Below are positions 8,936-33,750 of a stretch of DNA of 33,750 nucleotides, piece by piece (the stretch's first letter is position 1; each line of letters starts with the position of its first letter). The notes beneath the pieces are model-generated. The model was given only the letters and a program-made list of their open reading frames with translations. It had not been told where the DNA came from and did no database searches. Source of the DNA: Actinomycetota bacterium (GTDB lineage Bacteria > Actinomycetota > Acidimicrobiia > Acidimicrobiales > Ilumatobacteraceae). A program made the position numbers and the translations under genes. The stretch lies in contig WLMZ01000028.1 in assembly GCA_009726095.1 (NCBI GenBank), positions 1 through 33,750 of the forward strand, written 5' to 3'.

Positions 8936-8980
8936 GGGCTACATCGTGGCAGTGGCCGCTTCGGGCCGGCTGTGAACCAT

Positions 8981-9028
8981 CTTCGGGTTTGCTGGGAGTG
9001 CTGGCGGATGTTCCCAGCAAACCCGAAG
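8981..9028. repeat. Perfect 17-bp inverted repeat between divergent glycosyltransferase genes
   Basis: The arms cttcgggtttgctggga (8981-8997) and tcccagcaaacccgaag (9012-9028) are exactly complementary, with a 14-base loop. The repeat lies 46 bases from the GT39 start and 45 bases from the GT2-GtrA start. It lies upstream of both genes, so it is not a conventional terminator for either. It could be an operator for a dimeric regulator, an attenuator hairpin in a leader, or a mobile hairpin element. No T-run follows it. Confidence 0.85.
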
Positions 9029-9072
9029 GTTGCTCCCACACAAATCCAAGGTGCATCACGCACCATGCTGAC

Positions 9073-15497: not shown

Positions 15498-17254
15498 TCC
15501 AGGAGCGCCGCGGGGATGTCGACCACTCGGCTGCGCAGCCATTCGCCGAGGCTCTTGGCCTGGGCATCTTGGCGTGTAGACGCGGCAACGCCCTCTTGCA
15601 GCAGGTCGTGGATCACGAAGTTCAGCGAACGCAGGGCGGGTAGGCGATACCGATCGACCACCAACGGGGCCGTCTCGGGCAGCAGGCGCTGCAGTGTCTC
15701 GGTGGTGAGGAACTCGTCGAGCCAGGCCCAGGCCTGATCGGTGCGGGCGAACACGCCCAGGTTGGCATTGCCGCCCTTGTCGCCCGAGCGGGCACCGTAC
15801 AGCCGGCCGAGCGGCACGGCCATCGTGTGTCCACCCGGTATCGCTGCCGATGGGCCCGCTAGGCCGACGACGGTGACGTCATCATCGGGAGCGACGGAAT
15901 CGACGACAGTCCGTTCGCCGCCGAGGATCACCACGTGCTGGGGCACCAGCCCGGCGGGCACCAACGCTGGACGGTAGACGCCGTAGGCATTGCCTCCCGC
16001 TGGGCCGCCACTGACGCCGAACATGCCGGGGATCGTTGCAAGTGCAATTTCTGTGACTGCGTTGGCGACGGCGCGGCCGACCTTGCGTTCATCGGGATCC
16101 TTCAGCGTGATGCGCCACAGGGCAACTGCTTCTTCGTTGCTGGCAGGATCGATCTTGTCGGTGCGCACCACGCGGGTCGTGACGCTGGCAAAATCGCCTG
16201 GGCCGTATGGGCACGCCACCCAGAACGCGTCCTCGACCAACTGGGCCTTGGCGTCGATGTCGAGACCGGTCAGGGCGACGGCCATGTCGTTGCGGAACCC
16301 ACCGACCTCGTTCATGGCCACCTTCAATGTGGGTGGCGGCGGCTCACCTTTGGTGCCACTGATGCGCACACGATCGCGTGTGAGCTGTTCGAGCTGGATG
16401 GTGTCGAAGCGGGCGGAGACATCGGGGCCGAGGTAGGAGGGGCTGGCGATCTCGTAGAGCAACTGCGAGGTGACGGTGCCGATGGACACCTCGCCGCCGG
16501 TGCCGTCGTGTTTGCCGATGACGCACGACCCGTCGGCTGCGATCTCGGCCCATGGAAAGCCGACCCGGGTCATGCCGGGCACCTCGGTGAAGAACGAGTA
16601 GTTGCCGCCGGTGGCCTGCGCTCCGCATTCCACCACATGCCCGGCAACGACAGCGCCAGCCAGAGCGTCCCAGTCGTTGCGTGCCCAGCCGTGGTGCCAT
16701 GCGGCGGGTCCGCACACCACCGCAGCGTCTGTGACGCGGCCGGTGATGACGATGTCGGCACCACGGTTCAGCGCGTCGACGATGCCCCAGCAGCCCAGGT
16801 AGGCGTTGGCGGTGATGAACCGTGACGTGTCGCCGATGGCCTCACCCGTCTCGAAGTGGGCCAGGTCCACACCGGCTGCAACCAACTCGTCGAGACGGGG
16901 CAGCAGGTTGTCGCCGTTGACGTACGCAATGGTGGGTGACAGGCCCAGCTTGGCGGCCACCTCGGCAACGGCCTCGGCGCAGCCGTCGGGGTCGAGCCCG
17001 CCGGCGTTGGTGACGACCTTGATCCCCCGGTCGAGGCAGGTGCCCATCACCTGCTCCATCTGCTTCACGAAGCTGCTCGCATAGCCGCCACCGGGCCGCT
17101 TCGCCTGCGTGCGGGCCAGGATCAGCATGGTCAGTTCGGCCAGCCAATCACCGGTGAGCACATCGATGGGGCCGCCCTCGACCATCTCGCGGGCGGCCGA
17201 CAGGCGATCGCCGTAGAACCCCGAGCAATTGGCAATACGGATCGGCTTCGTCAT
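15494..17254 (-). CDS. AtuA-family protein (DUF1446 plus AtuA-like C-terminal domain)
   Basis: A 586-residue protein of the acyclic terpene utilisation AtuA family. Residues about 5-440 form the DUF1446 domain (MTKPIRIANCSGFYGDR at the start, then GDWLAELTM, VTNAGGLDPDG and ADIVITGRVTDAA). Residues about 475-575 form the AtuA-like ferredoxin-fold domain, marked by LYGARSGDKGGNANLGVF. In some organisms the two domains are separate genes; here they are fused. Pseudomonas AtuA belongs to the citronellol/geraniol cluster but its reaction is unknown, so no reaction is assigned. It sits directly after the carboxylase alpha subunit with an ATGA overlap, indicating work on the same acyl-CoA pathway. 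The start is fixed by the overlap and by family alignment. Confidence 0.87.
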   Translation of the reverse strand: MTKPIRIANCSGFYGDRLSAAREMVEGGPIDVLTGDWLAELTMLILARTQAKRPGGGYASSFVKQMEQVMGTCLDRGIKVVTNAGGLDPDGCAEAVAEVAAKLGLSPTIAYVNGDNLLPRLDELVAAGVDLAHFETGEAIGDTSRFITANAYLGCWGIVDALNRGADIVITGRVTDAAVVCGPAAWHHGWARNDWDALAGAVVAGHVVECGAQATGGNYSFFTEVPGMTRVGFPWAEIAADGSCVIGKHDGTGGEVSIGTVTSQLLYEIASPSYLGPDVSARFDTIQLEQLTRDRVRISGTKGEPPPPTLKVAMNEVGGFRNDMAVALTGLDIDAKAQLVEDAFWVACPYGPGDFASVTTRVVRTDKIDPASNEEAVALWRITLKDPDERKVGRAVANAVTEIALATIPGMFGVSGGPAGGNAYGVYRPALVPAGLVPQHVVILGGERTVVDSVAPDDDVTVVGLAGPSAAIPGGHTMAVPLGRLYGARSGDKGGNANLGVFARTDQAWAWLDEFLTTETLQRLLPETAPLVVDRYRLPALRSLNFVIHDLLQEGVAASTRQDAQAKSLGEWLRSRVVDIPAALLE

Positions 17255-19206
17255 TGCGGGCCTCCTGGAGAACCGTCGGTGTCGTCGGGTTCGAGCATCA
17301 GCAACACGGCACCGTTGCCGACCTGTTGACCGGCGCCGACGAACACCTCGGTGATGATGCCATCGGCGGGCGCAGTGATGTGATGCTCCATCTTCATGGC
17401 CTCCATCACCACCAGCGTGGTGCCGGCGGAGACGTGGTCGCCTACGGCGACGCGCACATCGAGCACGGTGCCGGGCATGGGGGCAGTGAGCCCACCGGTT
17501 GGCAGCTCGGACCCGGGCACCTCGAAGCGCGGCACGATGTGGAAATCGATGGTGCCGCGCGGTGTCTGCACGAAGATGCGATCGGCAGCGCGGGTGATGC
17601 GCAGCGTTGACCTGCGGCCGTCCACCTCGACATCGATATCGGCGGGAGAGCGGCGATGGATGAGCGCACTGCCGCTGCCATCGATGGCGAACGAACCGTC
17701 TCGTCGAGATCGGTAGGCGATGTCGACGATGCGATCGCCGTGACGCAGAGCGGTGTGCTGAGCTGGAAGCCGCGCGTTGCGCCACCCGCTGGGCAGCTGT
17801 GCCAATACCGGCGCGTGGGCACGGTTCTCTCCCTGAATCCATAGCGCCGCAGCAACGCCGGCGCGATGCAGATCGGCGTCGTTGAGGGTCAGCTTGAGAG
17901 CCGGGCGGACCCGCTCGATGAAGTCGGTGGTGGTGTCACCGGCGATGAAGTTGGGGTGGCGCAGCGTGGCCGCCAGGAAGTCGCGGTTGGTGGTGACGCC
18001 GCCGAGATGCAGTCGCTCGAGTGCCAGTGCCAGCAGGCCGGCGGCCTCGGTGCGCGTCGGCGCATGGGCGATGACCTTGGCGAGCATCGGGTCGAACGTG
18101 ACGCTGACCACCGAGCCCTGCTGCACGCCCGATTCCCAGCGCACCACCGGAGTGGGGGCGGGGGCGAACGCCGACAGCGTGCCCGTGGCCGGGAGGAAGC
18201 CGGCATCGGGGTCTTCTGCACACAGCCGTGCCTCGATGGCGTGACCGGAGAAGGTGATGTCGGATTGCGCGTATCCCAGCGGTTCGCCCGCAGCGATGCG
18301 GATCTGCTCGCGCACCAGATCGATACCCGTGACCTCTTCGGTGACGGGATGTTCCACCTGCAGGCGGGTGTTGACCTCGAGGAAGAAGAACTCGCGGGTG
18401 GCGTCATCGACCAGGAACTCAACGGTGCCCGCCGACTGGTAGCCCATGGAGCGCCCCAGTTGCAGGGCGGCCTCGCCCATCGCCGTGCGCATGGCGTCGT
18501 CGACCACCGGTGAGGGCGACTCCTCGATGAGCTTTTGGTGACGGCGCTGGATGCTGCACTCGCGCTCGCCGAGGTGCACCAGATTGCCGTGGGCATCGCC
18601 GAGGATCTGGATCTCGATGTGACGCGACGATGCCACGTAGCGTTCGAGGAACACGGTGTCGTTGCCGAAACCGCTGAGGGCTTCGCGACGCGCCGATGCG
18701 ACGGCTTCGTCGAGTTCGGCAGCGGTGGCCACGATGCGCATGCCCTTGCCACCGCCACCAGCCGACGCTTTGACCAACAGCGGGTAGCCAACGGCGGCTG
18801 CGCCGTCTGGAGTGTCGGCGGACGGCAACGTGGGCACACCCGCCGCAACGGCCAGACGCTTTGCGGCCAGCTTGTCTCCCATAGATGCAATGGCTTCGGG
18901 GGGTGGCCCGATCCAGGTGAGCCCGGCAGCCACCACGTCGGCAGCGAAGCCAGCGTTCTCGGACAGGAACCCATAGCCGGGATGAATGGCCTCGGCGCCG
19001 GCGGTCACGGCCGCAGCGATGATGGCGGCACCGTCGAGGTAGCCGGTGGCCAGCCGCACGGCTTCGTCGGCTTCGGACACGAACGGTGCGGCTGCATCGG
19101 AATCGACGTACACGGCAACGGTGCGAATACCCATGTCGTGCGCCGAGCGCATGATGCGCCGGGCGATCTCGCCGCGGTTGGCAATGAGGATGGTGGAGAA
19201 GCTCAC
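17251..19206 (-). CDS. Acyl-CoA carboxylase alpha subunit (biotin carboxylase + BCCP)
   Basis: A 651-residue biotin-dependent subunit that carboxylates biotin using ATP and bicarbonate and carries it to the beta subunit. The biotin carboxylase domain (about 1-445) shows ILIANRGEIARRI, the ATP-grasp glycine loop KASAGGGGKGM, ECSIQRRHQKLIEE and FLEVNTRLQVEHPVTE. A linker region (about 450-570) precedes the biotinyl domain (about 575-640), where EAMKMEHH carries the biotinylated lysine, about Lys605. Length and layout match methylcrotonyl-, geranyl- and actinobacterial acyl-CoA carboxylases; the substrate is set by the beta subunit. The start is a GTG inside a GTGA overlap with the beta gene; the frame is open far upstream but only because it runs antisense in another frame to that gene. 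Confidence 0.92.
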   Translation of the reverse strand: MSFSTILIANRGEIARRIMRSAHDMGIRTVAVYVDSDAAAPFVSEADEAVRLATGYLDGAAIIAAAVTAGAEAIHPGYGFLSENAGFAADVVAAGLTWIGPPPEAIASMGDKLAAKRLAVAAGVPTLPSADTPDGAAAVGYPLLVKASAGGGGKGMRIVATAAELDEAVASARREALSGFGNDTVFLERYVASSRHIEIQILGDAHGNLVHLGERECSIQRRHQKLIEESPSPVVDDAMRTAMGEAALQLGRSMGYQSAGTVEFLVDDATREFFFLEVNTRLQVEHPVTEEVTGIDLVREQIRIAAGEPLGYAQSDITFSGHAIEARLCAEDPDAGFLPATGTLSAFAPAPTPVVRWESGVQQGSVVSVTFDPMLAKVIAHAPTRTEAAGLLALALERLHLGGVTTNRDFLAATLRHPNFIAGDTTTDFIERVRPALKLTLNDADLHRAGVAAALWIQGENRAHAPVLAQLPSGWRNARLPAQHTALRHGDRIVDIAYRSRRDGSFAIDGSGSALIHRRSPADIDVEVDGRRSTLRITRAADRIFVQTPRGTIDFHIVPRFEVPGSELPTGGLTAPMPGTVLDVRVAVGDHVSAGTTLVVMEAMKMEHHITAPADGIITEVFVGAGQQVGNGAVLLMLEPDDTDGSPGGPQ

Positions 19207-20846
19207 AGCCGGAACACTCCGTATCCCTCGGCACCGGCGATAGCTCGGTTGCGTACCACCGACAGGCACATGCCCAGTACGGTGCGCGTGTCGCGCGGGT
19301 CGATGATGCCGTCGTCGCTGATTGCACCGGTGGCCACCAGTGCCAGCGAGCCCTTCTCCTGGATGGCCTCGACCATCTCGATGATCTTGCGGTCTTCGTC
19401 CTCGTCGAAGGGCAGACCCTGTCGGGCGGCCTGCCCACGGCGCACCATCGACATCACGCCGGCGATCTGCTTGGGGCCCATCACGGCGATCTTGGCGGTG
19501 GGCCACAGGAACGTGAACCGGTTGCCGAACGCCCGGCCCGACATGCCGTAGGTGCCGGCGCCGTACGACGATCCGATGGTGACGGTGAGGTGCGGAACGG
19601 TGGAGTTGGTGACGGCGTTGAGCATCTGCGACCCCTTCTTGATGATGCCGTCGGCCTCGAAGTCGCGGCCCACCATGTAGCCGGTGATGTTCTGCATGAA
19701 CACCAGCGGCACGTCGATCTGGTTGCACAGCTGGATGAAGTGCGTGGCCTTCTCGGCCGAGCGGGGGTAGATGACGCCGTTGTTGCCGATGATGCCCACG
19801 GGGTAGCCGTGGATGCTGGCCCACCCGCACACGATGCTGGCTCCATACCGCGGCTTGAACTCCTCGAAGCGGGAGCCATCGACCACCCGGGCGATGACAT
19901 CGCGCACATCCACGGGCGAGCGCAGGTCGCGGCTGACCAGACCGAGCAACTCGTCGGGGTCGTGTACGGGCTCGTCGGGCGCCAGGCTGGGCTCGGGGCC
20001 GGGCTTGCGCCAGTTGAGGTGCGACACGACCTCGCGGCACAGCCTGATGGCGTCCATCTCGTCCTCGGCGAAGTAGTCGCCCAGACCCGATACCTCGGCG
20101 TGCATCTGTGCGCCGCCGAGCGTCTCGTCGTCGGACTCCTCGCCCGTGGCCATCTTCACCAGCGGCGGACCCGCGAGAAAGATCTTCGACTGCTCCTTGA
20201 CCACGATGTTGTAGTCGCTGAGTCCCGGCTGGTACGCGCCGCCAGCGGTGGACGAACCGAACACGACGCACACGGTGGGGATGCGCATCTTTGACAACTC
20301 GATGAGCTCGTAGAAGAAGCGGCCGCTCTCGGCGAAGTGATCGGTCTGCACACGCCGGCCCCCACCACCGTCGGTCTCGACGCGTAGATCGGCGCCGGCG
20401 GACTCGACGAAGCTCACGTAGGGCATGCGGTTGTCGCGTGCGATCTCGAGCGCACGCATCCATTTCTTGGCCACATACGGCGTGAGCGCACCACCGAGCA
20501 CGGACGGGTCGTTGGCCAAGATGACGCACTCGGTGCCGGCGATCACGCCGATACCCACCACCGCACCGCCACCCATCGCGTAGTCGCTGTCGTACGCCGC
20601 GAGGGCGCTGATCTCGAAGAAGGGCGAGTCGGGGTCGAGTACGTTGGCGATGCGCTCGCGCACCGGCAGCTTGCCGCGAGCGCGCATGCGGTCCATTGCC
20701 TTCGGACCGCCGCCGGCCTCGGCCTGGTCGAGCAGGGCATCGATGACATCGAGCTGTTCGAGGATGTCGGCACGGTTCTGCTGGAACTGCTCGGATTGGG
20801 TGTCGAGCTTCGATCGCAGCGGCGGAGCCAGCAGGGTTCGGTCCAT
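19203..20846 (-). CDS. Acyl-CoA carboxylase beta subunit (carboxyltransferase, MCC/GCC-like)
   Basis: A 547-residue carboxyltransferase that moves CO2 from biotin to an acyl-CoA. The N-domain shows LPVRERIANVLDPDSPF, a Gly-Gly-rich loop, FGSSTAGGAYQPGLSDYN and GGAQMHAEVSG; the C-domain shows YPVGIIGNNGVI, QNITGYMVGRDFE and GAGTYGMSGRAFGNRF. The full-length two-domain architecture and QNITGYMVG favour the methylcrotonyl/geranyl-CoA branch over propionyl-CoA. The loop after WPTAKIAVMG is PKQIAG instead of the common GEQAA, so this may be a separate subgroup with a different acyl group. It is the first gene of a six-gene operon. The ATG at 20846 was chosen because a strong promoter places the transcript start on it. 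Confidence 0.9.
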   Translation of the reverse strand: MDRTLLAPPLRSKLDTQSEQFQQNRADILEQLDVIDALLDQAEAGGGPKAMDRMRARGKLPVRERIANVLDPDSPFFEISALAAYDSDYAMGGGAVVGIGVIAGTECVILANDPSVLGGALTPYVAKKWMRALEIARDNRMPYVSFVESAGADLRVETDGGGGRRVQTDHFAESGRFFYELIELSKMRIPTVCVVFGSSTAGGAYQPGLSDYNIVVKEQSKIFLAGPPLVKMATGEESDDETLGGAQMHAEVSGLGDYFAEDEMDAIRLCREVVSHLNWRKPGPEPSLAPDEPVHDPDELLGLVSRDLRSPVDVRDVIARVVDGSRFEEFKPRYGASIVCGWASIHGYPVGIIGNNGVIYPRSAEKATHFIQLCNQIDVPLVFMQNITGYMVGRDFEADGIIKKGSQMLNAVTNSTVPHLTVTIGSSYGAGTYGMSGRAFGNRFTFLWPTAKIAVMGPKQIAGVMSMVRRGQAARQGLPFDEDEDRKIIEMVEAIQEKGSLALVATGAISDDGIIDPRDTRTVLGMCLSVVRNRAIAGAEGYGVFRL

Positions 20847-20882
20847 CCGCTGATAATAGGTACGGTAATTTGTGACCGTCAA
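20844..20882 (-). promoter_or_regulatory. Strong sigma70-type promoter giving a leaderless carboxylase operon mRNA
   Basis: On the minus strand TTGACG (20882-20877) is followed after 18 bases by TATTAT (20858-20853). Only six bases lie between the -10 box and the ATG at 20846, so the expected +1 is the A of the start codon. There is no room for a Shine-Dalgarno in such a transcript. Both hexamers match the consensus at five of six positions, which stands out in DNA this GC-rich. Confidence 0.65.
20862..20879. promoter_or_regulatory. Candidate TetR operator ACGGT-N8-ACCGT
   Basis: A perfect 5-bp inverted repeat with an 8-base spacer lies within the spacer and -35 box of the carboxylase promoter, so a bound dimer would block RNA polymerase. 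It is in the shared region with the divergent nitronate monooxygenase-like gene and might control both. Linking it to the TetR gene at 14739-15497 is inference from position and symmetry. Confidence 0.4.
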
Positions 20883-20940
20883 TGTAGTCCTGACAACATG
20901 ACCCCAAGGGCCCTATGGCCGTACAGGAGGCGATTGCACC

Positions 20941-22086
20941 ATGAAGACCGCCATCACCGACATGCTCGGAATCGATGTACCCATTCTTGCGTTCACGCAC
21001 TGCCGCGATGTCGTCGCTGCCGTGTCGAAGGCCGGCGGTATGGGGGTGCTCGGTGCCGTGGCGCATTCACCCGCCCAGCTCGAGATCGACCTGGAGTGGA
21101 TCGAGAACGAGATCGGCGATCGCCCCTATGGCATCGATCTGATCGTGCCCGCCAAGTACGCCGGCAGTGACGCCGGCGGCTACACACTCGACGACATTCG
21201 TGGGCTCATCCCGGCCGAGCACATCGCTTTTGTCGACGACATCCTGCGCCGCTACGACGTGCCCACGCTCAGCGATGGCGACGGTGGGGGCCGCGGCGGT
21301 GTGATTGGCGGCGGTGGCGCCGTGCCGTTCTCGGCCAACCAGGCCGACCCGCTGTTGGAGATCGCGCTGGCCCGTCGGCCATCGTTGGTGGTGAACGCCC
21401 TTGGCCCGCCGCCTGCGCACATGATCGATCGCGTCAAAGAAGAAGGCCGGCTGCTGGGCGCCCTTGCCGGCAAGGCCCAGCATGCACAGCGCCACGTCAA
21501 CGTCGGCGTCGACATCATCATCGCCCAGGGCGCCGAGGCCGGTGGCCACACCGGCGAGGTCGGCACGATGGTGCTCATCCCCGAGATCGTCGATGCTGTC
21601 GCACCGGTTCCGGTGCTCGGGGCGGGCGGCATCGGCCGCGGCCGGCAGATGGCTGCTGCAATGGCGCTCGGGGCGCAGGGCGTGTGGTGCGGTTCGGTGT
21701 GGCTCACCACCGAGGAAGCCGAAACGCATCCGGTGGTGAAGCGCAAGTTCCTCGAGGCAACGTCATCGGACACCGTGCGGTCGCGTTCACGCACCGGCAA
21801 GCCGGCCCGGCAGTTGCGCACTGCCTGGACCGACGAATGGGACAACCCCGACAACCCCAAGCCGTTGGGCATGCCCATGCAGCCCATCTTGGTGGGTGAG
21901 GCCCTGGCGCGCATCGACCGTGCGGCCCATCGGTCGGGTAGTGGCGCCGAGCAGTTGACCAACTACTTCGTCGGCCAGATCGTGGGCTCGATGAACGTCA
22001 GCAAAACCGCCGCGCAGGTGGTCTACGACATGATCGACGAGTTCATCGAAGCGGTGCAGACACTGGGTCATCAGCTCGAGAGCTGA
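20941..22086 (+). CDS. Nitronate monooxygenase-like FMN enzyme
   Basis: A 381-residue TIM-barrel flavoprotein of the nitronate monooxygenase/2-nitropropane dioxygenase family. Visible are the N-terminal strand and loop (IDVPILAFTHCRDVVAAVSKAGGMGVLG), AQGAEAGGHTGEVG with the usual active-site His203, and the FMN phosphate loop GAGGIGRGRQMAAAMALGAQGV (about 227-248). Family enzymes oxidise nitronates or act as flavin-dependent oxidoreductases on other substrates; many genomic copies have no assigned reaction. A Gly-rich insertion (about 112-128) is uncommon. AGGAGG lies ten bases before the ATG. The gene is divergent from the carboxylase operon across 94 bases that hold the candidate operator, so joint control is likely, though not shown. 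Its stop lies 32 bases from the convergent isomerase-like gene; that gap contains a direct repeat (tcgccggg twice) and no clear terminator. Confidence 0.85.
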   Translation: MKTAITDMLGIDVPILAFTHCRDVVAAVSKAGGMGVLGAVAHSPAQLEIDLEWIENEIGDRPYGIDLIVPAKYAGSDAGGYTLDDIRGLIPAEHIAFVDDILRRYDVPTLSDGDGGGRGGVIGGGGAVPFSANQADPLLEIALARRPSLVVNALGPPPAHMIDRVKEEGRLLGALAGKAQHAQRHVNVGVDIIIAQGAEAGGHTGEVGTMVLIPEIVDAVAPVPVLGAGGIGRGRQMAAAMALGAQGVWCGSVWLTTEEAETHPVVKRKFLEATSSDTVRSRSRTGKPARQLRTAWTDEWDNPDNPKPLGMPMQPILVGEALARIDRAAHRSGSGAEQLTNYFVGQIVGSMNVSKTAAQVVYDMIDEFIEAVQTLGHQLES

Positions 22087-22118: not shown

Positions 22119-23342
22119 TCAGGCACTCGTGCCGAACGCGAGCCGCCACCACTGCTCGATGCGTTCGCGGTGGCGGCCGTGGAACAACACCAGGTGGTTG
22201 CCGAGCGGTGCCTCCAACAAGGTGTCGGCGCGTTTGCCTTCCAGGCGCAGGGTCACCTGTGTGCGGCACAGGTCGTTGGCTGTTCCGGTGGATTCGATCT
22301 CGGCTTCGGCGATCCACAGGCGATTCAGGGCCGGCCCACCGAGGCGCATCACGGTCACCCAGCCAGGTGCGAACGTGCCGCGTAGCCCGATGCCAAGGCC
22401 GGATTCGAAATGCGTGTGCAACTCCACGGCGTCCACCAGCGAAGGGGCCACCGTGCAGTGCGCCAGCAGCACCCGGTCGGTGTCGGTGTCGACGTGTGCG
22501 GGATTGCCCATCCAACTCGGCTGACCGAACAGGGCACGCACCAACAGCATCGCTACCGTGCTGGCGACGTCACCCTCGCAGCCGGCCACGATTCCTGTGT
22601 CGTTCAGCTCGGCCAGCGCCACGCAACCAGACGTGGTCAGCTCGGTTAGGAAGTCGAAGCAGCGCACCGTGACGGCATCGACGTGTGCCTGCTCGATCGT
22701 TTGCAGCAACGCCGGGTGCAACGCAGCGGCGCGCATCAACTCCGCCGTCGGCTCCGTGCGTGGCGCGAAACGCACGGCGACGGCCCGCGACGGCGCGGCA
22801 GCGGCGCCAGCGTGCGCGTCGATGGTGCCGCCGATGTCGATGGGCACCAGCTCGACGCCCCAGCGTTCGCGTAGCAGTTCTGCGTCGGGAACGCTGGCGA
22901 CGAGCCAGTCCGACGGCGCGCCCACCAGCCCGAGCCGGGTGGCGTGCAGGCGGTGGATCGCGATGACGTCGGCAATGCTGGCGGCCAGCCGCTCGGTGTG
23001 GCCCGTCTCTACCTGCACGATGCGTCCCCTTCGCCCGTCCATCTGCAGGCGGGCCAACGCCTCGAGCGCGGCCGGCAGGCTGTTGTGCAGGGGATGTGCG
23101 AGCAGCAGGACGGGCTCGAACGGCGCCACGGCGCGGCGGCGGGCGGCCAGGTCGAGGATCGCTGATTCGGTGCCGCCGGTGGCGACCAGGATCGCCAGCG
23201 GACGCTCGGGGTCGTCCTCTGGTTGACCGGCCCGGATGCCACCGAGATCGTGGAGCGTGGCGCGTGCGTCGGCTGTGACACGATCGATCGTCGCAGCGTC
23301 GTGCAGCGGGGAGGCAACCTGCAGATATTCGAATGTGCTCAT
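22119..23342 (-). CDS. L-fucose/arabinose isomerase-like protein (COG2407 type)
   Basis: A 407-residue protein resembling the fucose isomerase-like group. The clearest segment is [30 protein letters not shown] followed by [11 protein letters not shown], a pattern shared with COG2407 proteins, plus a C-terminal GNHLVLFHG. The N-terminal half is Rossmann-like with [10 protein letters not shown] and [15 protein letters not shown]. Family enzymes interconvert aldoses and ketoses with a divalent metal, but many members have no known substrate, and I cannot identify one here. The ATG at 23342 was preferred to the earlier MM pair at 23363/23360 because the protein begins with conserved-looking sequence there; this start is uncertain. 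It is convergent with the nitronate monooxygenase-like gene and divergent from the monooxygenase gene, so neither neighbour shares its transcript. Confidence 0.68.
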
Positions 23343-23478
23343 GGGCCCACTGCACCCCATCACCGCGGGCGCCGCCAGAGGCCAAGGTCATCGGGCCCCG
23401 CGTGGTGCGAAGCCGGCTGTTCGTAGTAAGAACGCAACGTCGGGCAGTGGCCCGAGACCGAGGATGCAAGGCAGAGCG

Positions 23479-25335
23479 ATGTCGACAGACCAGCAGCAGA
23501 CACCCATTGATGCAGACGCCCTTCGCCGCAAGTACCGCGAGGAACGCGACAAGCGGTTGCGTGTCGATGGCAACGACCAGTATCTCGAGGTGGCCGGTGA
23601 CTTCGCCCGGTACCTGGTGGACCCCTACATCGAGCCGTTCGAACGCGAGCCGTTGAGCGACGATGTCGAGGTCGTCATCATCGGTGGCGGCTTCGGTGGC
23701 CTGCTTGCCGGAGCACGCCTTCGCCAGGCGGGCGTGGCCGACATCCGCGTCATCGAAAAAGGTGGCGACTTCGGCGGCACCTGGTACTGGAACCGTTACC
23801 CCGGCGCAGCATGCGACGTGGAGTCCTACATCTATCTGCCGCTGCTCGAGGAGATCGGGTACATCCCCGAACAGAAGTACTCGAACGCCCCCGAGATCCT
23901 GGCGCATAGCCAGGCCATCGGCCGCCACTTCGACCTCTATTCGAACGCGTGCTTCCAGACCGAGGTCACCGGGTTGCGATGGGACGATGCCGCTGGGCGG
24001 TGGATCATCTCGACCAACCGTGGTGACCAGATGCGCGCCCGCTTCGTGTGTATGGCCAATGGCCCGCTGCACCGCCCGAAACTGCCGGCGATCCCCGGCG
24101 TCGAACTGTTCCAGGGTCACACGTTCCACACCAGCCGCTGGGATTATGACTACACCGGCGGTACCTCGTTGGGTGGCCTGTCGGGTCTGGGTCACAAGCG
24201 CGTCGGCATCATCGGCACCGGGGCGACGGCGGTGCAGTGCATTCCGCATCTGGCCGAGGGCAGCGAGCACCTGTACGTGTTCCAGCGCACGCCCTCATCC
24301 ATCGACGTACGTAACAATCAGCCGACATCGCCCGAGTGGGCCGACACGCTCGAACCGGGTTGGCAGAAGCGCCGCATGGAGAACTTCAACACGCTCGTGT
24401 CCGGCGGCTTCCAGGCCGAGGATCTGGTGAACGACGGTTGGACCGACATCATCGGCAAGCTGCTGATCATGGTGCGCCGCGAGTCGGCCGATCTCAGCCC
24501 CGAGGGCCTCAGCAACACGATGGAGCTCGCCGACTTCGAGAAGATGGAGCAGATCCGCTCGCGTGTCGACACCATCGTGTCCGATCCGGCCACGGCCGAG
24601 GCGCTCAAGCCCTATTACCGCCAGTTCTGCAAGCGTCCGTGCTTTCACGACGGCTACCTGTCGGCGTTCAACCGTGACAACGTCACGCTCGTCGACACGC
24701 AGGGCCGAGGTGTCGAACGCATCACCGCGACCGGTGTGGTGGTGGATGGCGTCGAGTACGAACTCGACTGCCTCGTCTACGCCACCGGGTTCGAGGTGGG
24801 TACCGACTACACGCGTCGGTCGGGTTACGAGCTCATCGGGCGCGACGGCATCACCTTGACCGAGAAGTGGGCCGACGGTGCCGCCACGCTGCACGGCATG
24901 CACAGCCGTGGGTTCCCGAACTGCTTCATCTTCAGCAACATCCAGGCCGGATTCACCGTCAACTTCCCGCACATGCTCGACGAGCAGAGCAAGCACCTCG
25001 CCTACATCCTGCGTCATGCGATGGACAACGACATCCAGGTGATCGAGGCGTCAGACGATGCCGAGTCGGCATGGGTGCAGAGAATCCTCGATCTGTCGCA
25101 GAACAACCAGAAGTTCCTCGAGGCGTGCACGCCTGGCTACTACAACAACGAAGGCAAGCCCGAGGCGCGCAGCGCGCGCAACGGCAGCTACGGCGGTGGT
25201 GGTGTGGCCTTCATCGCGCTGCTGGAGAACTGGCGTGCCGACGGCGCGCTTCAGGGCCTCGAACTGACCCACGAACCCGACGAGCGTTCGCAGCGAGAAG
25301 AGGGCATCCGGGCCCGCCGCAGCATTGCGAGGTAG
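23479..25335 (+). CDS. Flavin-containing (Baeyer-Villiger-type) monooxygenase
   Basis: A 618-residue class B flavoprotein monooxygenase that should use FAD, NADPH and O2 to insert oxygen into a ketone or oxidise a related substrate. The FAD Rossmann motif is at 67-74 (VIIGGGFGG), followed by [18 protein letters not shown]. The Baeyer-Villiger fingerprint FxGxxxHxxxWD is intact as [12 protein letters not shown] (211-222), and the NADPH motif [10 protein letters not shown] follows at about 244-253. The N-terminal extension of about 60 residues and overall length suit the larger cyclopentadecanone/steroid-type group. The ATG at 23479 was chosen because upstream sequence in this frame is low-complexity and shared with the divergent promoter region. 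The substrate is unknown; terpenoid or cyclic ketones would fit the neighbouring acyl-CoA operon but this is inference. Confidence 0.9.
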
Positions 25336-25387
25336 CGTCCACGCCTGCGCTCGGATCCGTCGGCGCGAATGGGCGCCAGGGGCCACG

Positions 25388-28300
25388 ATGTACTTTTCCC
25401 AAACCAGCCGTTGGACCAGCGGCGGCCGGCTTGCCGTACTGCTCGCCGCGGTGCTGTCGATGTTTGCCGGAGTGTTGGCGGTCGGCGCGGCGCCGGTCGC
25501 AGCCGTCCCCCCGTTCGGCCCGGCCTTAACACACGTGCTCAACGCCGGAGGGGGCCAGAACGCAAGTGATGGCATCGAGTGGCGCCTCGACGGTGGGCAA
25601 CTGCAGGTACATCGCTACACCCCCGCATACAGCTCCGGCACCTGCGATACGACCAGCTGTGTCCTGACCCCTCACGCAGCCCAGCCGGGGGCGGCGCAGT
25701 TGTACGACCCAGTCGTCGACCCAGCCGCTGTCTCCTCACCCCAGTTGACCAATGGTTGGTTCCTCGCCATTATGGGCGACCCGAACGACCTCTACACCAC
25801 CACCCTAGTGGGCCAGCCAGCGTTCGGCGCCATACCTGATGCCACGCTGTTGCCGATCTGCGATTGGACTGCATCGCCGGCGACGTGCGTTAACCGGGCG
25901 CCGTGGAGGTCGGTCGTGACCACTGGCGGGTCCGTGACGGCAGATCAAGCGGGCAGCGCATCGCACTCGATCACCAGCGTGATGACCTATACCCCTGCCC
26001 CGGGTCAAGACTTCGTGATGACCGTGACCATGACCTACGTCGGGCTCGGCCAACGCGCCAACGTGACCGTCTCGGTCACTGCGCCTGCGGACAACACCGC
26101 AACGATGAAGGTCTACAACCTGTTCGACTCGTACCTGTTGGGCGACGATTCGGGCGCAGGTTTCTACGACGCAACAACCGATTCCAATCACCCACAGGTC
26201 GGCGTACAGAAGTACCTCCCCGACGGCACCCGGGTCATCGAGGCAATGCAGAACAACGGCCCGCTGTGGGACGGCTATGTGTCGAGCGAATTCCTGTGCG
26301 GCTTCGTCGGCGTATCCGATCTGGATGTGCCCGTCGCGTGCGGTGGATCCCTCTCGCCGGTGGCGGGGGGAGCGATGTTCCTCGGCGGCGATTTGTACAC
26401 CGGCGAAGCCGCGTTGAACCGCAACCCCACGACGGACAACGGTTTCGGCGCGATGTGGAAGTTGCCGGTCACTGGAACAGACCCGGTCAAGCCCATCGAC
26501 TACGACCTGAACTTCTCGATCGACCAGGTGTCGAGCGGCAACGTGTTCATCGGCGGCCGGTACTGGGACGGTAGCGCCTCGACCGATTCGACCGACCCCA
26601 CCTCCGGAACGGCCGAAAGCTGTAGCAACACCCCATACCACTCGATCTTCGCGGCGGCATCCACCAGCGCGGCCAACGGCGACGGAGCATCGTCTGCCCA
26701 GCCGGGCGACACCGTCTACATCTGCCCCGGCACCTACCGGGAGTCGCGTCAGATCAGCTACCCGGCCAACGTGAGCTTCGTGGGCGTCAACCTCGACGGC
26801 ACGCCAGCCACGGGCATACAACGACCCGTCATCGAGCGCGCGGCGAACCCCGACAGCGCGGGACCGTTGTTCGCGTCGGCCAAGACAGCGTTGCCGCAGG
26901 GCACCACGGCATTTCGGGGCCTCATCCTGCAGAACGGCTACTCGGCATCGGAGCCGGGAGCAATGATCAGCCTCGGGCCGCTCGATGCGGACACCATGCT
27001 GGCGGTTGTCGACTGCGACTTCCTGAACAACACAGCGTCGTCGGGTGGAGCGATCTCCACCGATGGCGCAGGGGTCGTGGTCACCGACTCGGTGTTCGCC
27101 GGCAACACCGCAACGAGGGAAGCCGATTTCGTCACATCGCGAGGTGGCGGAGCGATCCTGTCCACAAACGGCACGGTCACCGTGAACAACTCCTCGTTCA
27201 CCGCAAACTTCGCGCAGGACGATGGCGGGGCGATCAGCGCCGCAACCGTCGCGGCAAACGATTCCACCTTCGAATCCAACAGGTCGCGTGAGGGCGGAGC
27301 GCTCGCGTCCTTCTCAGCCATCGTTCGCCGATCGAGCTTCAAGGCCAACGTCGCCCGTGGGGACGGCGGTGCCATCTCGACGAACATCGGCGACCTCGCC
27401 GACTCCACGTTCACCAGTAACTCCACTGAGGTCAGCGAGAATTTCGGTGGAGCGGTCGCTGCCTACGGAAATGCGACCGGGGCGCCAACGGTGCGCCACG
27501 CCGTGACTGCAACTTCGGATCCGGTGGTGGGAACAACGCTGGCCATCGCTGGCAGCACCTTCAGCGGCAACAGTTCCACGCTGCTCGGCGGAGCGGTGTA
27601 CGTCGCCACCGGCCCAACCACGATCGTGGGTTCCACGTTCGCCAGCAACTCGGTCGATCGTGCTTCGGGTGGTGTGGGCGGTGCTGTCTATTCGACCGAC
27701 CAGATTGCGATCACGTCCAGCACGTTTGTCGCCAACACCGCCTATATAGGTGGAGCGGTCCTGAGCGCCTTCTCCCCCGCTCTGCCGTGTAGCTGTTCGA
27801 CCGAGTTGGCGTCGGTGACGGCCATCAACTCCACTTTTTCGGCCAACACCGCCGACACCGGCGGAGCCATCTCGGGCTGGGTGACCGCAGCGACGTACTC
27901 CACATTCGCGGACAACGTCGCCGATTCCTTCGGTGGGGCCATCAACGCGGATCAAGGTCTCCGGCTGGCCAACTCGTTGTTCTCGACAAACGCCGTGAGC
28001 CCGGCCTGTGGATCGCCGGTCACCGGTGCAGGCCCCAACAGCAGCTGTGCTCAAACCCTCAACCCGCCTGTGAACACCGGTTCGTGCAGCACCACTTCCC
28101 CGCAACTCGTCTACGACCTGGGTGGCAACATCACCGACGATGCCAGCTGCGCGTATCAGCCCTCCAGCGGTTCGCCCTCCAAGCCCACCGCGTTGAGCAC
28201 GGCGGTCGACATGCATCTCGGCGTGCTGGCCAACAACCCGGCGTCGGCGGGAACCCAGACCATCTCGATCGACACGACCAGCACGGCATACAGCGCGGCC

Positions 28301-31300
28301 GACTGCACGGCGGCCCCCGACATTCTCACGGACCAGAACGGCGTGTCACGCCCCCGTGGCGGCGGTTGTGAGGCAGGTGCGTTCGAGGTCTTCGAAGCGC
28401 TGGCCGGCCCCGGCGCGGTCTACATCGTTGGCCGCGGCTTCGATAGCACCAGCGGTGTGGAACAGCCCACGCCTGACCTCGGGCACCTCATCACCAGTTG
28501 TGACAACACCCCATATCACCTGATCGGCGATGCAACGCACGCGGCCGTCGATGGCGACACCGTGCACGTCTGTCCCGGTACCTACACCGAGCCGACGATC
28601 CAGGTGTCCGCCGACGATGTCACCATCGAGGGCGACATGGTGCTAGACCCGACTTCCGGGCCGCAGTTGCAGGCCCACATCGACGCGTTGCAGGACAATA
28701 TCGATGCCGGCCCGGCGGGCCATGGGCTGATCGCCGTTGCTCCTTCCGTGACGACGTTCACGCTCGACACCATTGAGCTGACACATGGGCGTGCCGTTGA
28801 CGGCGGCGCCGTCTATGCCCCGGGTTCGCTGGTCGTGGTCAAGGACTCGGCCTTCTCCGGGAATCAGGCGTCCGTTCATGGTGGAGCTGTGTACGCCAGA
28901 GACGTTGAGACCTCCTCGCGAACCGGGTTCAGCGAGAGCGGGATTCCCGTGGCTTTCTACGCGAATGTTGCATTGGCCGGCTCTGAGTTCGACGCATACG
29001 ACGCGATGGCAGGCGGCGGTGCGATCTTCGCCACCCGCAGCGTGCACGCAACCGACACCGTCTTCGCTTACAACGGAACCACCGGGTCTGGAGGCGCCAT
29101 CGACGCACCAGACGTCGAAGCCACCCGCACGGCCTTTGGTCTCAACAGCACCTACGAGGGTTTTGGCGGTGCCATCGTCAGCCCTGCAGCGTTTGGCAGG
29201 GTTGTATTGGTGGACTCGGCGATGGCGCTCAACGGCCTCGGCTATCTCACCACACCTCTTCCGATGCAGCTTCTTTCGCCGCAGCAGACCTCGGTCGGGG
29301 GTGGCATCGCTGCCATGGGCGCCGGCAGCACTGTGAGCCTGCAGCGCACGTCCGTGTTCGTCAACTTCGCAGGAACCGGTGGAGGGATCTACTCGAACGG
29401 CGGCTCGGTGCAGGTGACCAACACCAGCTTCGTATCGAACCATGGTGACAGCGCCGGTGGAGCGATCCATTTGGGCTCCGGCACACTCGACATCCTGCAC
29501 TCGTCGTTCTACAGCAACAGCTCTCTCGATGGCTCGTCGGTCTGGATGCCTGGTCTCCGTGCCCCGAGTGCAGCGGGTGCAACGACATCGACCGTCACGA
29601 ACTCGATCTTTGCCGATGTGGACGGTGATGGCGTTGCCCTGAGTGGTACCTGCAATGCAGGGGAACTCGCCGACGGCGGAGGCAACTTCACCACGGATGG
29701 CAGTTGCCCCGGAGAGCCGGCGTCGGTGGAAGCGCTCGGACTTGTGGTGCCAGATCCGCTCCCATTCGGGAGCCCGAACCTGGTGCCCTCCGGAATCTTT
29801 CCCGGTCTCCCTTTCGATGCCGTCGTTGCCCCCAGCGCTGGCAGTGTTGCCTTCGACGCCATTGCGCCTGATCTTGCGGGTGCTTGCGCAGTGAGCGTTG
29901 ACGAACGTGGCGTGGCCCGCCCGCAGGGCGCCAAGTGCGATGCCGGGGCCTACGAACACCAACCGGCGAGCGGACCCAACAGCGTGTACATCGAAAGTGA
30001 CGGTGGCTCGTGTGTAGCCCCCACCTACACCTCGATCACCGACGCAGTGGCTGGTGCCGTTACCGACGACATCATCCATGTGTGTACCGGCACCTATCGC
30101 GAGCCCACCATCGTGGTGCCTGCGTCGAAGAACAACCTCACCATCCTCGGTGAGGACTACACGCCGACCAACAAGCCCACCACGTCGCCCAAGGTGCCCT
30201 TGGACCCCAGCGTGATCATCGACGGTGAGCAGATTGAAGCCGATGCGACGAGTCGTCATCAGATCTTCGATGCCACCGGCCTGACCATCTCGTTCAAGAA
30301 CGTCACGTTGCGCAATGGGTCCAGCGACAGTAATGGCGGTGGCGTGACGGCCGCAGAGGTCATCGGCGAGGACTGTGTGTTCCGGCACAACGTTGCACCC
30401 GGTGGTGGTGCAGTGTTCGTCACGGCCAGCCTGATCGAATCGATCCCTGCTGCGGTCACGATGACCAACTGCGACTTCACCGACAATGGGTTCAGCCCTA
30501 CCGCAGACACCTTCGATGGCGGTGCGATCTACGCCGACGGCGGTCTGGTCACGTTGACGGATTCGAGGTTCACCGGGAACTCGGCGATCAATCACACCTC
30601 GGTGGATCGCCCGGTTGGCGAGAATGGCGCAAGCCCGGCCAACGAGGGTGCGGGCGGAGCAGTGCTCGCAGCCCACATCGAATCAGACGGCAGCACGTTC
30701 GACTCGAACATTGCAGCGTTCCATGGCGGAGCCCTGCTGGCTGAGACTGTGAACGTGCGCACGAGCACGTTCACAGCGAACACGGCTCTCGTCGATGGTT
30801 CTGGTTACGGCGGTGCCATCTGGGGTAGCTACATCTCGGTAACCGAGAGCACCTTCAGTGCAAACCAGGCCGACGGCGGCGGCGCCATCGGCGCTGTCGA
30901 CGGCGCAGCGCCGATCCTGGCTCCTGCTCCGGCAGATCCCGTGTTGGTCGCAGACGTACGCATTGACTCGAGCACCTTCGAGGGCAACACCGCCACCGCA
31001 TACGGCGGAGCGGTGTACAACACCTCGGGCACCGTCGAGTCGTACAACTCCACCTTCTCGGCGAATACCGCAGGCTTGAACGGTGGTGGCGTGATGTCCG
31101 CCGGACCGCTCACGTTGCTGAACAACACCTTCGATGCCAACACAGCGGTCAACGATGGTGGCGTGTACGCCACGTCGGCGGCAGTGACCGTTGGCAACAA
31201 CATCTTTTCGTTCGAGGGTGGTTCACGCGACCGGCCCACGCCCGGCAATGGTTGTTCGGATTGGACGGTCAACCCCACCGATCTCGGTGGCAACTTCACC

Positions 31301-33750
31301 AGCGATTGGTGGTGCCCCGGTACCGAGATCTCCGTGAACCGCATGGGTTTGAAGCCCTTGGCTGACAACGGCGGACCGACCGAGACCATCGGGCTGCAAC
31401 GCTGGAGCTCGGCAGTGGACCATGGCGACGACGCAACATGCCAGGGCGACGACGTCAACGGCACCGACCAGCGTGGTGTGCTGCGACCGGTCGGCGCGCA
31501 GTGCGATTCGGGCGCTGTGGAGTTCGCTGCCCTGACGTCGGACCCGACCACAACGGCGACGTTGGCGAGCGAGACCGAGATCGTGGTGGGTGACACCATC
31601 AGCGACACCGCCACCGTCACGCCTTCGCTGCAGACCCGCCCCGTGCATGGCGGGCGCCTGAATCCTGCGCCCGCACCAACCGGCATGGTGGAGTGGTTCT
31701 ACTGCTTCGATGCCGCCACCGCACCGAGCTCGTGCGACCCAAGCACCGGCACCGCAATCGGTGATCTCGTCGAGCTCGATGTCAACGGCGAAGCCGTTCT
31801 GACCGACTGGGAGCCGACCGATGGAGTTGGCTTCTACATGTTCCACGCTGTGTATCGCGGTGACGACAACTGGGCCGCGTCGTTCGACGACGGAACCGAC
31901 GAGTCGTTCGAGGTCGTCAAGCGGGTCACGGTCACCGCCGACGATGCGTCGGCCACCTACGGAACCGCGGCGGGCCCGTTCACCTACACGTCCGATGGCT
32001 TCGACCCGGGTGACGATTTCACCACGCCGCCGACGTGCAGCGTGTTTGACACCGACGACGCCGACTACCTCACCCCGTTGACCGCCGATGCGACACTGGC
32101 GCCAGGCGACTACGTGATTCATTGCGCTGACGGGGTTGCCCCGGCCGGATACAAGATCAAGTACGTCGACGCGACCTTGACTGTCTCGAAGAAGAAGCTG
32201 AGGATCGAGGTCGAGCACTCGGACATCACCTATGGCGACTCGAGCACGAACCTGAACATCGACATCGACATCGAGGGTTGGGCGCGTGCCGATAAGCCGG
32301 CACATGATGACGACGGCGAGGATCACGGCTACATGGACGGCTTCGTGCCGCCGGACTGCGATCTCCACTACACGCCGACCACGCCGGTCGGCTCGGTCGA
32401 CGTCACCTGCACCGGTGGGTCATCAGACTTCTACGAGATCCCCTCCGGGGTGATCGGTTCCTATGTCATCAAGCCGGCCAAGCTCACGGTGACTGCTGAC
32501 CCCAAGACCGCTGTGTACGGCGGTCCTGCTCCGACCTACACCTACACGGTGACCGGATTCAGAAACGGTGAGACCGAATCCGGTGGAACCATGGCCAGTG
32601 GGTATGTGGCGCCGACGTGTTCATCGAGCTACTCCGGTGGCCCGACTGCGCCGGCACTGCTCGACCCGATCAGCGCGTCACCCAGCGGTCCGAAGATCAC
32701 GTGCTCGGGTGGTTCGGCCACGAACTACACCTTCGAGTACAAGTACGCGCTGTTGACCTTGGCCAAGGCAGTACTCGTGGTGACACCGGATGCGAAGTCG
32801 GTTGTCTACGGTGGTGCTGCGCCTACCTACACCTTCAGCGTGACCGGGTTCGTGCCAGGTCAGACGGCGGGTACGGCGGCGGGTTATTCGGCGCCGAAGT
32901 GCACGTCGTCGTACACGACTTCGACGGCGGTGGGTTCGCCGGTGAACATCACGTGCTCGGGTGGCTCGGCGACGAACTACTCGTTCACCACCAGTGCCAC
33001 TGCGGCGCTGACGGTGACCCAGGCCGCGTTGGTCGTCACGCCTGATGCGAAGAGCGTGGCGTACGGCGCAGTGGTTGGTGCGTACACGTTCAAGCTGTCG
33101 GGTCTGAAGAACAACGAGCCAGTTCCAGGGGCGGGGTACGTGGCCCCGGTCTGTTCCTCGTCGTATTCGACAACGTCGCCGGCGGGAACCCCGTTGACGA
33201 TTTCGTGCTCGGGTGGTTCGTCCACGAACTACACGTTCGGCACATCGCCGACGGCGGTGTTGACCGTGACCAAGGCCGTGTTGACGGTGACGCCTGATGC
33301 GAAGAGCGTTTCCTACGGTGGTTCTGTGCCGTCGTACACCTCGGTCGTGTCGGGTTTCCGTCCCGGTGACTCGGCTGCCACTGCAGCGGGATACGTCGCA
33401 CCGGTGTGCGTGTCGCCGTACACGTCGTTCACCTCAGTCGGGTATGTGACGATCACGTGCTCGGGTGGTTCGGCCACCAATTACACCTTCAGTTTCCAGA
33501 CGGCGAAGGTCACGGTGAACAAGGCTGTTCTCGTGGTGACGCCGGATGCGAAGTCGGTTGTCTACGGCGGTGCTGCACCCACGTACACGTTCGGTGTGGC
33601 CGGGTTCGTGCCCGGTCAGACGGCGGGTACGGCGGGTGGATATGTGGCACCGAAGTGCACGTCGTCGTACACGACGTCGACGGCTGCAGGTGCCCTGGTC
33701 AACATCACGTGCTCGGGTGGTTCGGCGACGAACTATTCGTTCACCACAAC
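25388..33750 (+). CDS. Giant secreted beta-helix/MBG-repeat surface protein (3' partial)
   Basis: One open frame of 2,787 complete codons runs to the window end without a stop. Residues 1-39 form a signal peptide (Arg-rich start, long hydrophobic core, APVAA at the cut site). Residues about 45-380 form a domain I do not recognise. Three right-handed beta-helix modules follow (about 385-1001, 1008-1524 and 1529-2046), each opening with a VYI...CPGTYRE-type segment and closing with a D-x-RG-x-x-RP-x-G-x-x-CD/E-x-GA-x-E motif. Inside them the repeats alternate FxxN and GGA(I/V), as in chlamydial Pmp and other surface adhesins. An Ig-like segment (about 2047-2177) leads to at least seven MBG-like repeats. 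AGGGG lies six bases before the ATG. The protein is likely a cell-surface adhesin or stalk; anchor and end lie outside the window. Confidence 0.9.
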   Translation, partial: MYFSQTSRWTSGGRLAVLLAAVLSMFAGVLAVGAAPVAAVPPFGPALTHVLNAGGGQNASDGIEWRLDGGQLQVHRYTPAYSSGTCDTTSCVLTPHAAQPGAAQLYDPVVDPAAVSSPQLTNGWFLAIMGDPNDLYTTTLVGQPAFGAIPDATLLPICDWTASPATCVNRAPWRSVVTTGGSVTADQAGSASHSITSVMTYTPAPGQDFVMTVTMTYVGLGQRANVTVSVTAPADNTATMKVYNLFDSYLLGDDSGAGFYDATTDSNHPQVGVQKYLPDGTRVIEAMQNNGPLWDGYVSSEFLCGFVGVSDLDVPVACGGSLSPVAGGAMFLGGDLYTGEAALNRNPTTDNGFGAMWKLPVTGTDPVKPIDYDLNFSIDQVSSGNVFIGGRYWDGSASTDSTDPTSGTAESCSNTPYHSIFAAASTSAANGDGASSAQPGDTVYICPGTYRESRQISYPANVSFVGVNLDGTPATGIQRPVIERAANPDSAGPLFASAKTALPQGTTAFRGLILQNGYSASEPGAMISLGPLDADTMLAVVDCDFLNNTASSGGAISTDGAGVVVTDSVFAGNTATREADFVTSRGGGAILSTNGTVTVNNSSFTANFAQDDGGAISAATVAANDSTFESNRSREGGALASFSAIVRRSSFKANVARGDGGAISTNIGDLADSTFTSNSTEVSENFGGAVAAYGNATGAPTVRHAVTATSDPVVGTTLAIAGSTFSGNSSTLLGGAVYVATGPTTIVGSTFASNSVDRASGGVGGAVYSTDQIAITSSTFVANTAYIGGAVLSAFSPALPCSCSTELASVTAINSTFSANTADTGGAISGWVTAATYSTFADNVADSFGGAINADQGLRLANSLFSTNAVSPACGSPVTGAGPNSSCAQTLNPPVNTGSCSTTSPQLVYDLGGNITDDASCAYQPSSGSPSKPTALSTAVDMHLGVLANNPASAGTQTISIDTTSTAYSAADCTAAPDILTDQNGVSRPRGGGCEAGAFEVFEALAGPGAVYIVGRGFDSTSGVEQPTPDLGHLITSCDNTPYHLIGDATHAAVDGDTVHVCPGTYTEPTIQVSADDVTIEGDMVLDPTSGPQLQAHIDALQDNIDAGPAGHGLIAVAPSVTTFTLDTIELTHGRAVDGGAVYAPGSLVVVKDSAFSGNQASVHGGAVYARDVETSSRTGFSESGIPVAFYANVALAGSEFDAYDAMAGGGAIFATRSVHATDTVFAYNGTTGSGGAIDAPDVEATRTAFGLNSTYEGFGGAIVSPAAFGRVVLVDSAMALNGLGYLTTPLPMQLLSPQQTSVGGGIAAMGAGSTVSLQRTSVFVNFAGTGGGIYSNGGSVQVTNTSFVSNHGDSAGGAIHLGSGTLDILHSSFYSNSSLDGSSVWMPGLRAPSAAGATTSTVTNSIFADVDGDGVALSGTCNAGELADGGGNFTTDGSCPGEPASVEALGLVVPDPLPFGSPNLVPSGIFPGLPFDAVVAPSAGSVAFDAIAPDLAGACAVSVDERGVARPQGAKCDAGAYEHQPASGPNSVYIESDGGSCVAPTYTSITDAVAGAVTDDIIHVCTGTYREPTIVVPASKNNLTILGEDYTPTNKPTTSPKVPLDPSVIIDGEQIEADATSRHQIFDATGLTISFKNVTLRNGSSDSNGGGVTAAEVIGEDCVFRHNVAPGGGAVFVTASLIESIPAAVTMTNCDFTDNGFSPTADTFDGGAIYADGGLVTLTDSRFTGNSAINHTSVDRPVGENGASPANEGAGGAVLAAHIESDGSTFDSNIAAFHGGALLAETVNVRTSTFTANTALVDGSGYGGAIWGSYISVTESTFSANQADGGGAIGAVDGAAPILAPAPADPVLVADVRIDSSTFEGNTATAYGGAVYNTSGTVESYNSTFSANTAGLNGGGVMSAGPLTLLNNTFDANTAVNDGGVYATSAAVTVGNNIFSFEGGSRDRPTPGNGCSDWTVNPTDLGGNFTSDWWCPGTEISVNRMGLKPLADNGGPTETIGLQRWSSAVDHGDDATCQGDDVNGTDQRGVLRPVGAQCDSGAVEFAALTSDPTTTATLASETEIVVGDTISDTATVTPSLQTRPVHGGRLNPAPAPTGMVEWFYCFDAATAPSSCDPSTGTAIGDLVELDVNGEAVLTDWEPTDGVGFYMFHAVYRGDDNWAASFDDGTDESFEVVKRVTVTADDASATYGTAAGPFTYTSDGFDPGDDFTTPPTCSVFDTDDADYLTPLTADATLAPGDYVIHCADGVAPAGYKIKYVDATLTVSKKKLRIEVEHSDITYGDSSTNLNIDIDIEGWARADKPAHDDDGEDHGYMDGFVPPDCDLHYTPTTPVGSVDVTCTGGSSDFYEIPSGVIGSYVIKPAKLTVTADPKTAVYGGPAPTYTYTVTGFRNGETESGGTMASGYVAPTCSSSYSGGPTAPALLDPISASPSGPKITCSGGSATNYTFEYKYALLTLAKAVLVVTPDAKSVVYGGAAPTYTFSVTGFVPGQTAGTAAGYSAPKCTSSYTTSTAVGSPVNITCSGGSATNYSFTTSATAALTVTQAALVVTPDAKSVAYGAVVGAYTFKLSGLKNNEPVPGAGYVAPVCSSSYSTTSPAGTPLTISCSGGSSTNYTFGTSPTAVLTVTKAVLTVTPDAKSVSYGGSVPSYTSVVSGFRPGDSAATAAGYVAPVCVSPYTSFTSVGYVTITCSGGSATNYTFSFQTAKVTVNKAVLVVTPDAKSVVYGGAAPTYTFGVAGFVPGQTAGTAGGYVAPKCTSSYTTSTAAGALVNITCSGGSATNYSFTT
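26540..28390 (+). repeat. Beta-helix module 1 of the giant protein
   Basis: About 617 residues with twelve FxxN turns counted by eye (for example STFSGNSSTLLGGAV and STFVANTAYIGGAV). It opens with NVFIGGRYWDG and CPGTYRESRQ, and ends with GVSRPRGGGCEAGAFE. Each turn pairs a (S/T)xFxxN with a GGA(I/V/L) step, the signature of PMP-type beta-helix coils. Confidence 0.8.
28409..29959 (+). repeat. Beta-helix module 2 of the giant protein
   Basis: About 517 residues opening with AVYIVGRGF and CPGTYTEPT, and closing with GVARPQGAKCDAGAYE. It has fewer and less regular FxxN coils than module 1 (for example SAFSGNQASVHGGAV, then degenerate coils such as SEFDAYDAMAGGGAI). Confidence 0.78.
29972..31525 (+). 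repeat. Beta-helix module 3 of the giant protein
   Basis: About 518 residues opening with SVYIESDGG and CTGTYREPT, and closing with GVLRPVGAQCDSGAVEF. About ten coils are visible (for example STFDSNIAAFHGGAL and STFEGNTATAYGGAV). Confidence 0.78.
31919..33750 (+). repeat. At least seven MBG-like repeats of the giant protein
   Basis: Units begin near 31919, 32189, 32477, 32762, 33017, 33269 and 33518, about 250-290 bases each, and continue past the window. The first two are divergent. The later ones share a (L/V)VTPDAKSVxYGG start, a GYxAPxC segment and ITCSGGSATNYTF. The pattern resembles the MBG family of extracellular repeats, with two Cys added in most units. Confidence 0.82.

Follow-up and report, generated by a model that had tools for sequence, protein, structure and literature searches.

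A very large, probably exported protein with three tandem Pmp-type β-helix modules and an MBG tail in an uncultured actinomycete

Related surface proteins

Pmp-type repeat proteins with signal sequences are known from the Gram-positive actinomycete Salinispora, where about 30 copies per genome have been read as type V autotransporter-like pores (PMC3314556). Adhesion of chlamydial Pmp21 to human cells depends on the presence of at least two FxxN/GGA motifs (PMC2997323). Searches of the literature on MBG, choice-of-anchor, and Ilumatobacteraceae β-helix proteins returned nothing relevant.

The giant protein described here resembles both systems in part. It is likened by description to the Salinispora proteins, with which it has Pmp-type repeats and a signal sequence in common; it differs from their reading as pores in that its host lacks outer-membrane machinery and no barrel is seen. 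With Pmp21 it shares a signal peptide and passenger FxxN/GGA(I,L,V) doublets (PMC2997323). However, chlamydial Pmps carry a C-terminal outer-membrane barrel, whereas the giant protein has an MBG tail and choice_anch_Q domains and belongs to a host without Omp85. It is probably a very large Sec-exported rod-and-tail protein of a monoderm actinomycete, an adhesin or a scaffold outside the cell with a binding or adhesive function, and not an autotransporter. Its domains, motif excess, predicted β-helix, fold matches to adhesins, signal peptide, the absence of Omp85, and tail-sharing relatives all favor this reading. The arrangement is unusual; all recognized parts come from known families, and the head is in neither family library used. 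The protein is a further case of Pmp-type β-helix modules in a host that has no autotransporter route.

Table 1. Features of the giant protein in the window
Feature	Position	Strand	Evidence
Sec-type signal peptide, residues 1-40	25388..25507	+	basic n-region, hydrophobic core, no lipobox
Orphan head, residues 41-405 (~365 residues), probably β-rich	25508..26602	+	no family match
Rod module 1: Pmp-type β-helix and choice_anch_Q (28208-28390)	26603..28402	+	choice_anch_Q 41.8 bits
Rod module 2: Pmp-type β-helix and choice_anch_Q (29825-29962)	28535..29962	+	choice_anch_Q 42.8 bits; FxxN/GG(A/G)(I/V) spacing
Rod module 3: Pmp-type β-helix and choice_anch_Q (31346-31525)	29975..31525	+	choice_anch_Q 67.8 bits; predicted β-helix
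Ig-like domain, Big_3_5-like	31550..31912	+	E 4.7e-6, 27.5 bits, under curated cut-off of 35.5
MBG tail, seven repeats, the last cut by the contig end	31913..33748	+	six PF18676 repeats and one recognized by eye
PF18676 (MBG_2) stretches	31925-32182, 32483-32758, 32774-32995, 33029-33250, 33281-33514, 33530-33745	+	profile match

Gene and contig

The window, which is the whole stretch of DNA analyzed, is the entire 33,750-base contig C113 of a 191-contig genome that is 88% complete. A single frame of over 2,787 codons, noted in the preliminary description, is confirmed: 25388-33750 (+), which starts with an ATG, contains no stop codon before the contig runs out and counts 2,787 codons. GC3 is 0.72 to 0.83 in each 600-base slice of this frame and similar in the neighboring genes, and AGGGG, a Shine-Dalgarno-like string, lies immediately 5' of the ATG; therefore, the whole frame very probably codes for protein. 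Long minus-strand ORFs within it would be shadows, as expected at 64% GC. Searches for Rfam families and tRNAs found no matches.

The frame breaks off inside an MBG repeat. Since the window is the whole contig, the truncation comes from the assembly rather than from the choice of window. MBG repeats 4 and 7 have 198 of 228 bases in common, and near-duplicate repeats at the contig end are a plausible cause of the break. A contig that stops inside such a repeat might also suggest that the frame itself was made by an assembly error. The uniform coding composition and the unbroken frame argue against this, as does a relative on another assembly (L099, below) in which the rod and the MBG repeats lie in a single frame. 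Together with the autotransporter reading considered below, assembly error makes up an extremely unlikely explanation.

The search for the C terminus, proposed earlier, covered all MBG-bearing contigs of the bin and found none that continues the giant gene. Contig C187, whose open 5' end made it a candidate, starts with Fn3-like sequence that duplicates the end of C62; it was therefore placed with a C62-type protein and not with the window. The two overlapping stretches (C62:1-2000 and C187:13290-13834; L093 and L011) encode Fn3 and MBG sequence that is nearly identical, though not identical, over about 180 residues at the contig ends, which points to either paralogues or a mixture of strains in the bin. 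In the C62 protein, this sequence is preceded by BspA-like (FNQPLxxWNT) repeats.

Signal peptide and head

The signal peptide is borne out by its basic n-region and by a hydrophobic core at residue 15 with a mean KD of 2.52 over 19 residues, compared to at most 1.54 elsewhere in the protein; no lipobox is seen.

The head, already termed unrecognized in the preliminary description, has kept that status. It matches no family in Pfam or NCBIfam, and no credible homologue was found in 60 relatives, in 298 genomes of the order, or in a GTDB pattern scan. Three weak matches among the 298 genomes (E 0.004 to 0.007) were judged to be due to chance: two have internal stops, and one is in an unrelated-looking, repeat-rich exported protein. 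Single-sequence fold prediction of the head gave a pLDDT of 33, too low to be informative. The head might be a binding domain not described before, mounted on three tandem β-helix/choice_anch_Q units and an MBG tail, in a monoderm lineage whose MBG-tailed proteins exchange their fronts and have no recognized anchor. This would imply an unrecognized form of surface retention, for example through that tail; such a combination is a tentative and rather doubtful proposal.

Rod modules

The three modules each start with a C..(T/P).Y..I..A...(G)D.(V/I)(H/Y)(V/I)C.GTY.E-type stretch, continue with coils of ~23 to 30 residues that bear FxxN and GGA(I,V) motifs, and end in a choice_anch_Q domain. Module 1 contains 12 FxxN and 11 GGA(I/L/V) motifs. 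Residues 481 to 2060 contain 27 FxxN and 24 GGA(ILV) motifs, against 3.2 and 0.6 in shuffled sequences, and 21 FxxN-(4-14)-GGA doublets, against 0.01 (maximum of 1 in 1,000 shuffles). Profile searches for the Chlam_PMP and MBG families, suggested at the outset, matched both: Pfam Chlam_PMP at 7.8e-23 and MBG_2 at 3e-54. The NCBIfam POMP_repeat model also matches (3.7e-17).

Module 3, the one module for which a fold was predicted, came out as a parallel β-helix when predicted from four aligned rows, which comprised the modules of the window and a single relative. Most 10-residue blocks have a pLDDT of 75 to 94 over model residues 10 to 400, loops excepted. The three β-helix modules with FxxN/GGA coils of the preliminary description thus stand, on the motif excess, the Chlam_PMP match, and this predicted fold.

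VIA-align places module 3 onto many solved right-handed β-helices (Z 20 to 27). The matches include alginate epimerases, phage tailspikes, and many polysaccharide-active enzymes, with AlgE6 at the top (Z 26.7), as well as the surface adhesins PfbA (Z 22.1), pertactin (Z 21.5), and L. reuteri SRRP (Z 20.9); such matches are evidence of fold and not of function, and the best of them are enzymes. One of the β-helices might still be the catalytic unit of a polysaccharide lyase or epimerase, given that AlgE6, AlgE4, RbmB, AlgG, and PL6 lyases are the top structural matches. However, identity in those alignments is just 9 to 16%, phage tailspikes, NosD, and adhesins match almost equally well, and no enzyme family is matched by sequence, which leaves an enzymatic role quite unlikely. 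PfbA (3zpp) and SRRP (5ny0), like the modules here, are exported right-handed β-helices of Gram-positive bacteria, at ~13 to 15% identity.

The choice_anch_Q model (NF041518) scores 117.5 bits over its three stretches (curated cut-off, 25). Its name refers to anchoring, and yet it recurs here at three internal positions, each time at the end of a β-helix; thus, this domain need not mark a C-terminal anchor. It might serve as a closing cap, as its position suggests, although its own predicted structure has low confidence (pLDDT about 30).

Ig-like domain and MBG tail

The Ig-like piece reported earlier is upheld by a Big_3_5 match with a low E value, although its bit score lies under the curated cut-off (Table 1). 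The MBG repeats of the proposed stalk are confirmed, with an MBG_2 (PF18676) score of 181.9 bits over six scored repeats, above the curated cut-off. A divergent repeat, the second (residues 2270 to 2361), was recognized by eye. Each repeat contains two Cys residues (14 overall), which suggests that each might form one disulfide.

Host envelope and export

The host is an uncultured monoderm actinomycete, probably of the Ilumatobacteraceae. The Omp85 domain (PF01103) is absent from all 21 genomes searched (the host and 20 relatives), and the control was positive in 7 of 14, so that an autotransporter route is very unlikely; the expectation that this actinobacterium lacks such a route held up. 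The Chlam_PMP and POMP_repeat matches are what would favor a type V autotransporter, a chlamydial Pmp proper. Because the search for Omp85, needed in this class to insert the barrel into an outer membrane, came out negative, the giant protein is not assigned to it. The class also has a C-terminal β-barrel ending in Phe; none is recognized in the relatives with known ends. The presence of Pmp coils in an actinobacterium, presented at first as a surprise, is no longer one, given the Salinispora report (PMC3314556) and choice_anch_Q domains in 19 of 61 genomes.

Another reading is anchoring by sortase, with an LPxTG tail past the contig end. The genome encodes four sortase domains, and the order of head, rods, and tail would suit a wall adhesin. 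However, no LPxTG motif was found near ORF ends at the two sortase loci examined, no such signal is seen in any relative with a known MBG end, and the only LPxTG-like string in the giant protein is internal (LPVTG, residue 359). A sortase-anchored wall protein is accordingly an unlikely alternative. The wall-anchoring regions that PfbA and SRRP possess have no counterpart in the sequenced part of the giant protein.

Relatives with MBG tails

Three relatives with known stop codons share the MBG tail with the giant protein. C24, from the same genome (1,330-residue frame), contains Gly_rich_2 domains and five scored MBG repeats, together with an Ig-like piece that resembles the window's, and ends in TASLAVR*. 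C122, also from this genome (1,846-residue frame), carries Gly_rich_2, one β-helix/choice_anch_Q module, and additional Gly-rich stretches, and its MBG end terminates in KKPSKPPQPRIN*. L099 (G030:C51; apparently WLJO01000055.1, from the MAG Actinomycetota UFOp-RH-15aug16-100), a relative from the same family, has a 2,250-residue frame that combines Gly_rich_2 with a single rod, a homologue of module 3, and with five scored MBG repeats; it ends in TGTLTVR*. Module 3 is 43% identical to the L099 module and 31% identical to that of C122. These proteins have a Gly_rich_2 front and at most one rod, whereas the giant protein has an orphan head and three rods, a tandem arrangement not seen in the relatives examined. 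Across this set, the tail is thus constant and the front interchangeable.

All three proteins stop at or just after the MBG repeats, without an LPxTG motif, a membrane segment, or a recognized barrel at their ends. Therefore, the stalk displayed away from the wall, which the preliminary description read from the order of head, rods, and stalk, is unproven: its MBG repeats are borne out, and an anchor is missing from these nearest relatives. The same ends are consistent with a matrix or sheath component that is released and never anchored, in which tail-tail contacts with paralogues would build an extracellular matrix. The giant protein's own C terminus lies beyond the contig end, and the four sortase domains make anchoring possible, so this explanation is a real possibility that falls short of being probable. 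With relatives that end without an anchor, release would be at least as likely as attachment to the wall.

Under the preferred reading, a Sec-exported rod-and-tail protein, the chain would pass through Sec and then fold on the far side of the membrane, giving three stiff rods and, after them, a flexible, disulfide-stabilized tail. The head, the solvent faces of the rods, or both might attach to glycans or surfaces in the way that other β-helix adhesins do, with the MBG tail acting as a spacer. Adhesion is plausible by analogy, with the adhesive role of the FxxN/GGA motifs resting on chlamydial proteins and human cells, another setting than the present host.

A second type of end, with a β-looking C-terminal domain after the MBG repeats, is found in C187 and in G001:C57 from the same genus. 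The latter (L044:7579-16947) is a striking fusion, a 3,123-residue frame that includes a short β-helix/choice_anch_Q-like part, pentapeptide repeats, a C25-type peptidase domain, YDG and MBG_2 repeats, and the β-looking C-terminal domain.

MBG_2 is present in 2 of the 9 genomes of the genus, and the choice_anch_Q count given above is of matches over the cut-off; these genes form a patchy, accessory set. Across the phylum, Chlam_PMP is found in at least 6 of 296 genomes, an underestimate, as the 19-position model gave just one match in the giant protein itself. MBG-tailed relatives with swapped fronts and no visible anchor pose a tractable question of cell-surface architecture in uncultured Acidimicrobiia-type actinomycetes.

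Other genes on the contig

An FAD-dependent monooxygenase-like gene at 23236-25335 (+), in the same orientation as the giant gene, ends 52 bases upstream of it. A search of 24800-25700 for sigma-70-like promoters found none, so the two genes are possibly cotranscribed. A biotin carboxylase/biotin carrier protein (in a 1,271-residue frame) adjoins an AtuA-type acyclic terpene utilization protein (782 residues) at 15494-21066 (-), in what looks like an Atu-type catabolic cluster. The contig also carries surface glycosylation genes, a divergent pair at 6533-10263 that encodes a PMT_2/YkcB-like mannosyltransferase and a GT2-GtrA polyprenyl glycosyltransferase.
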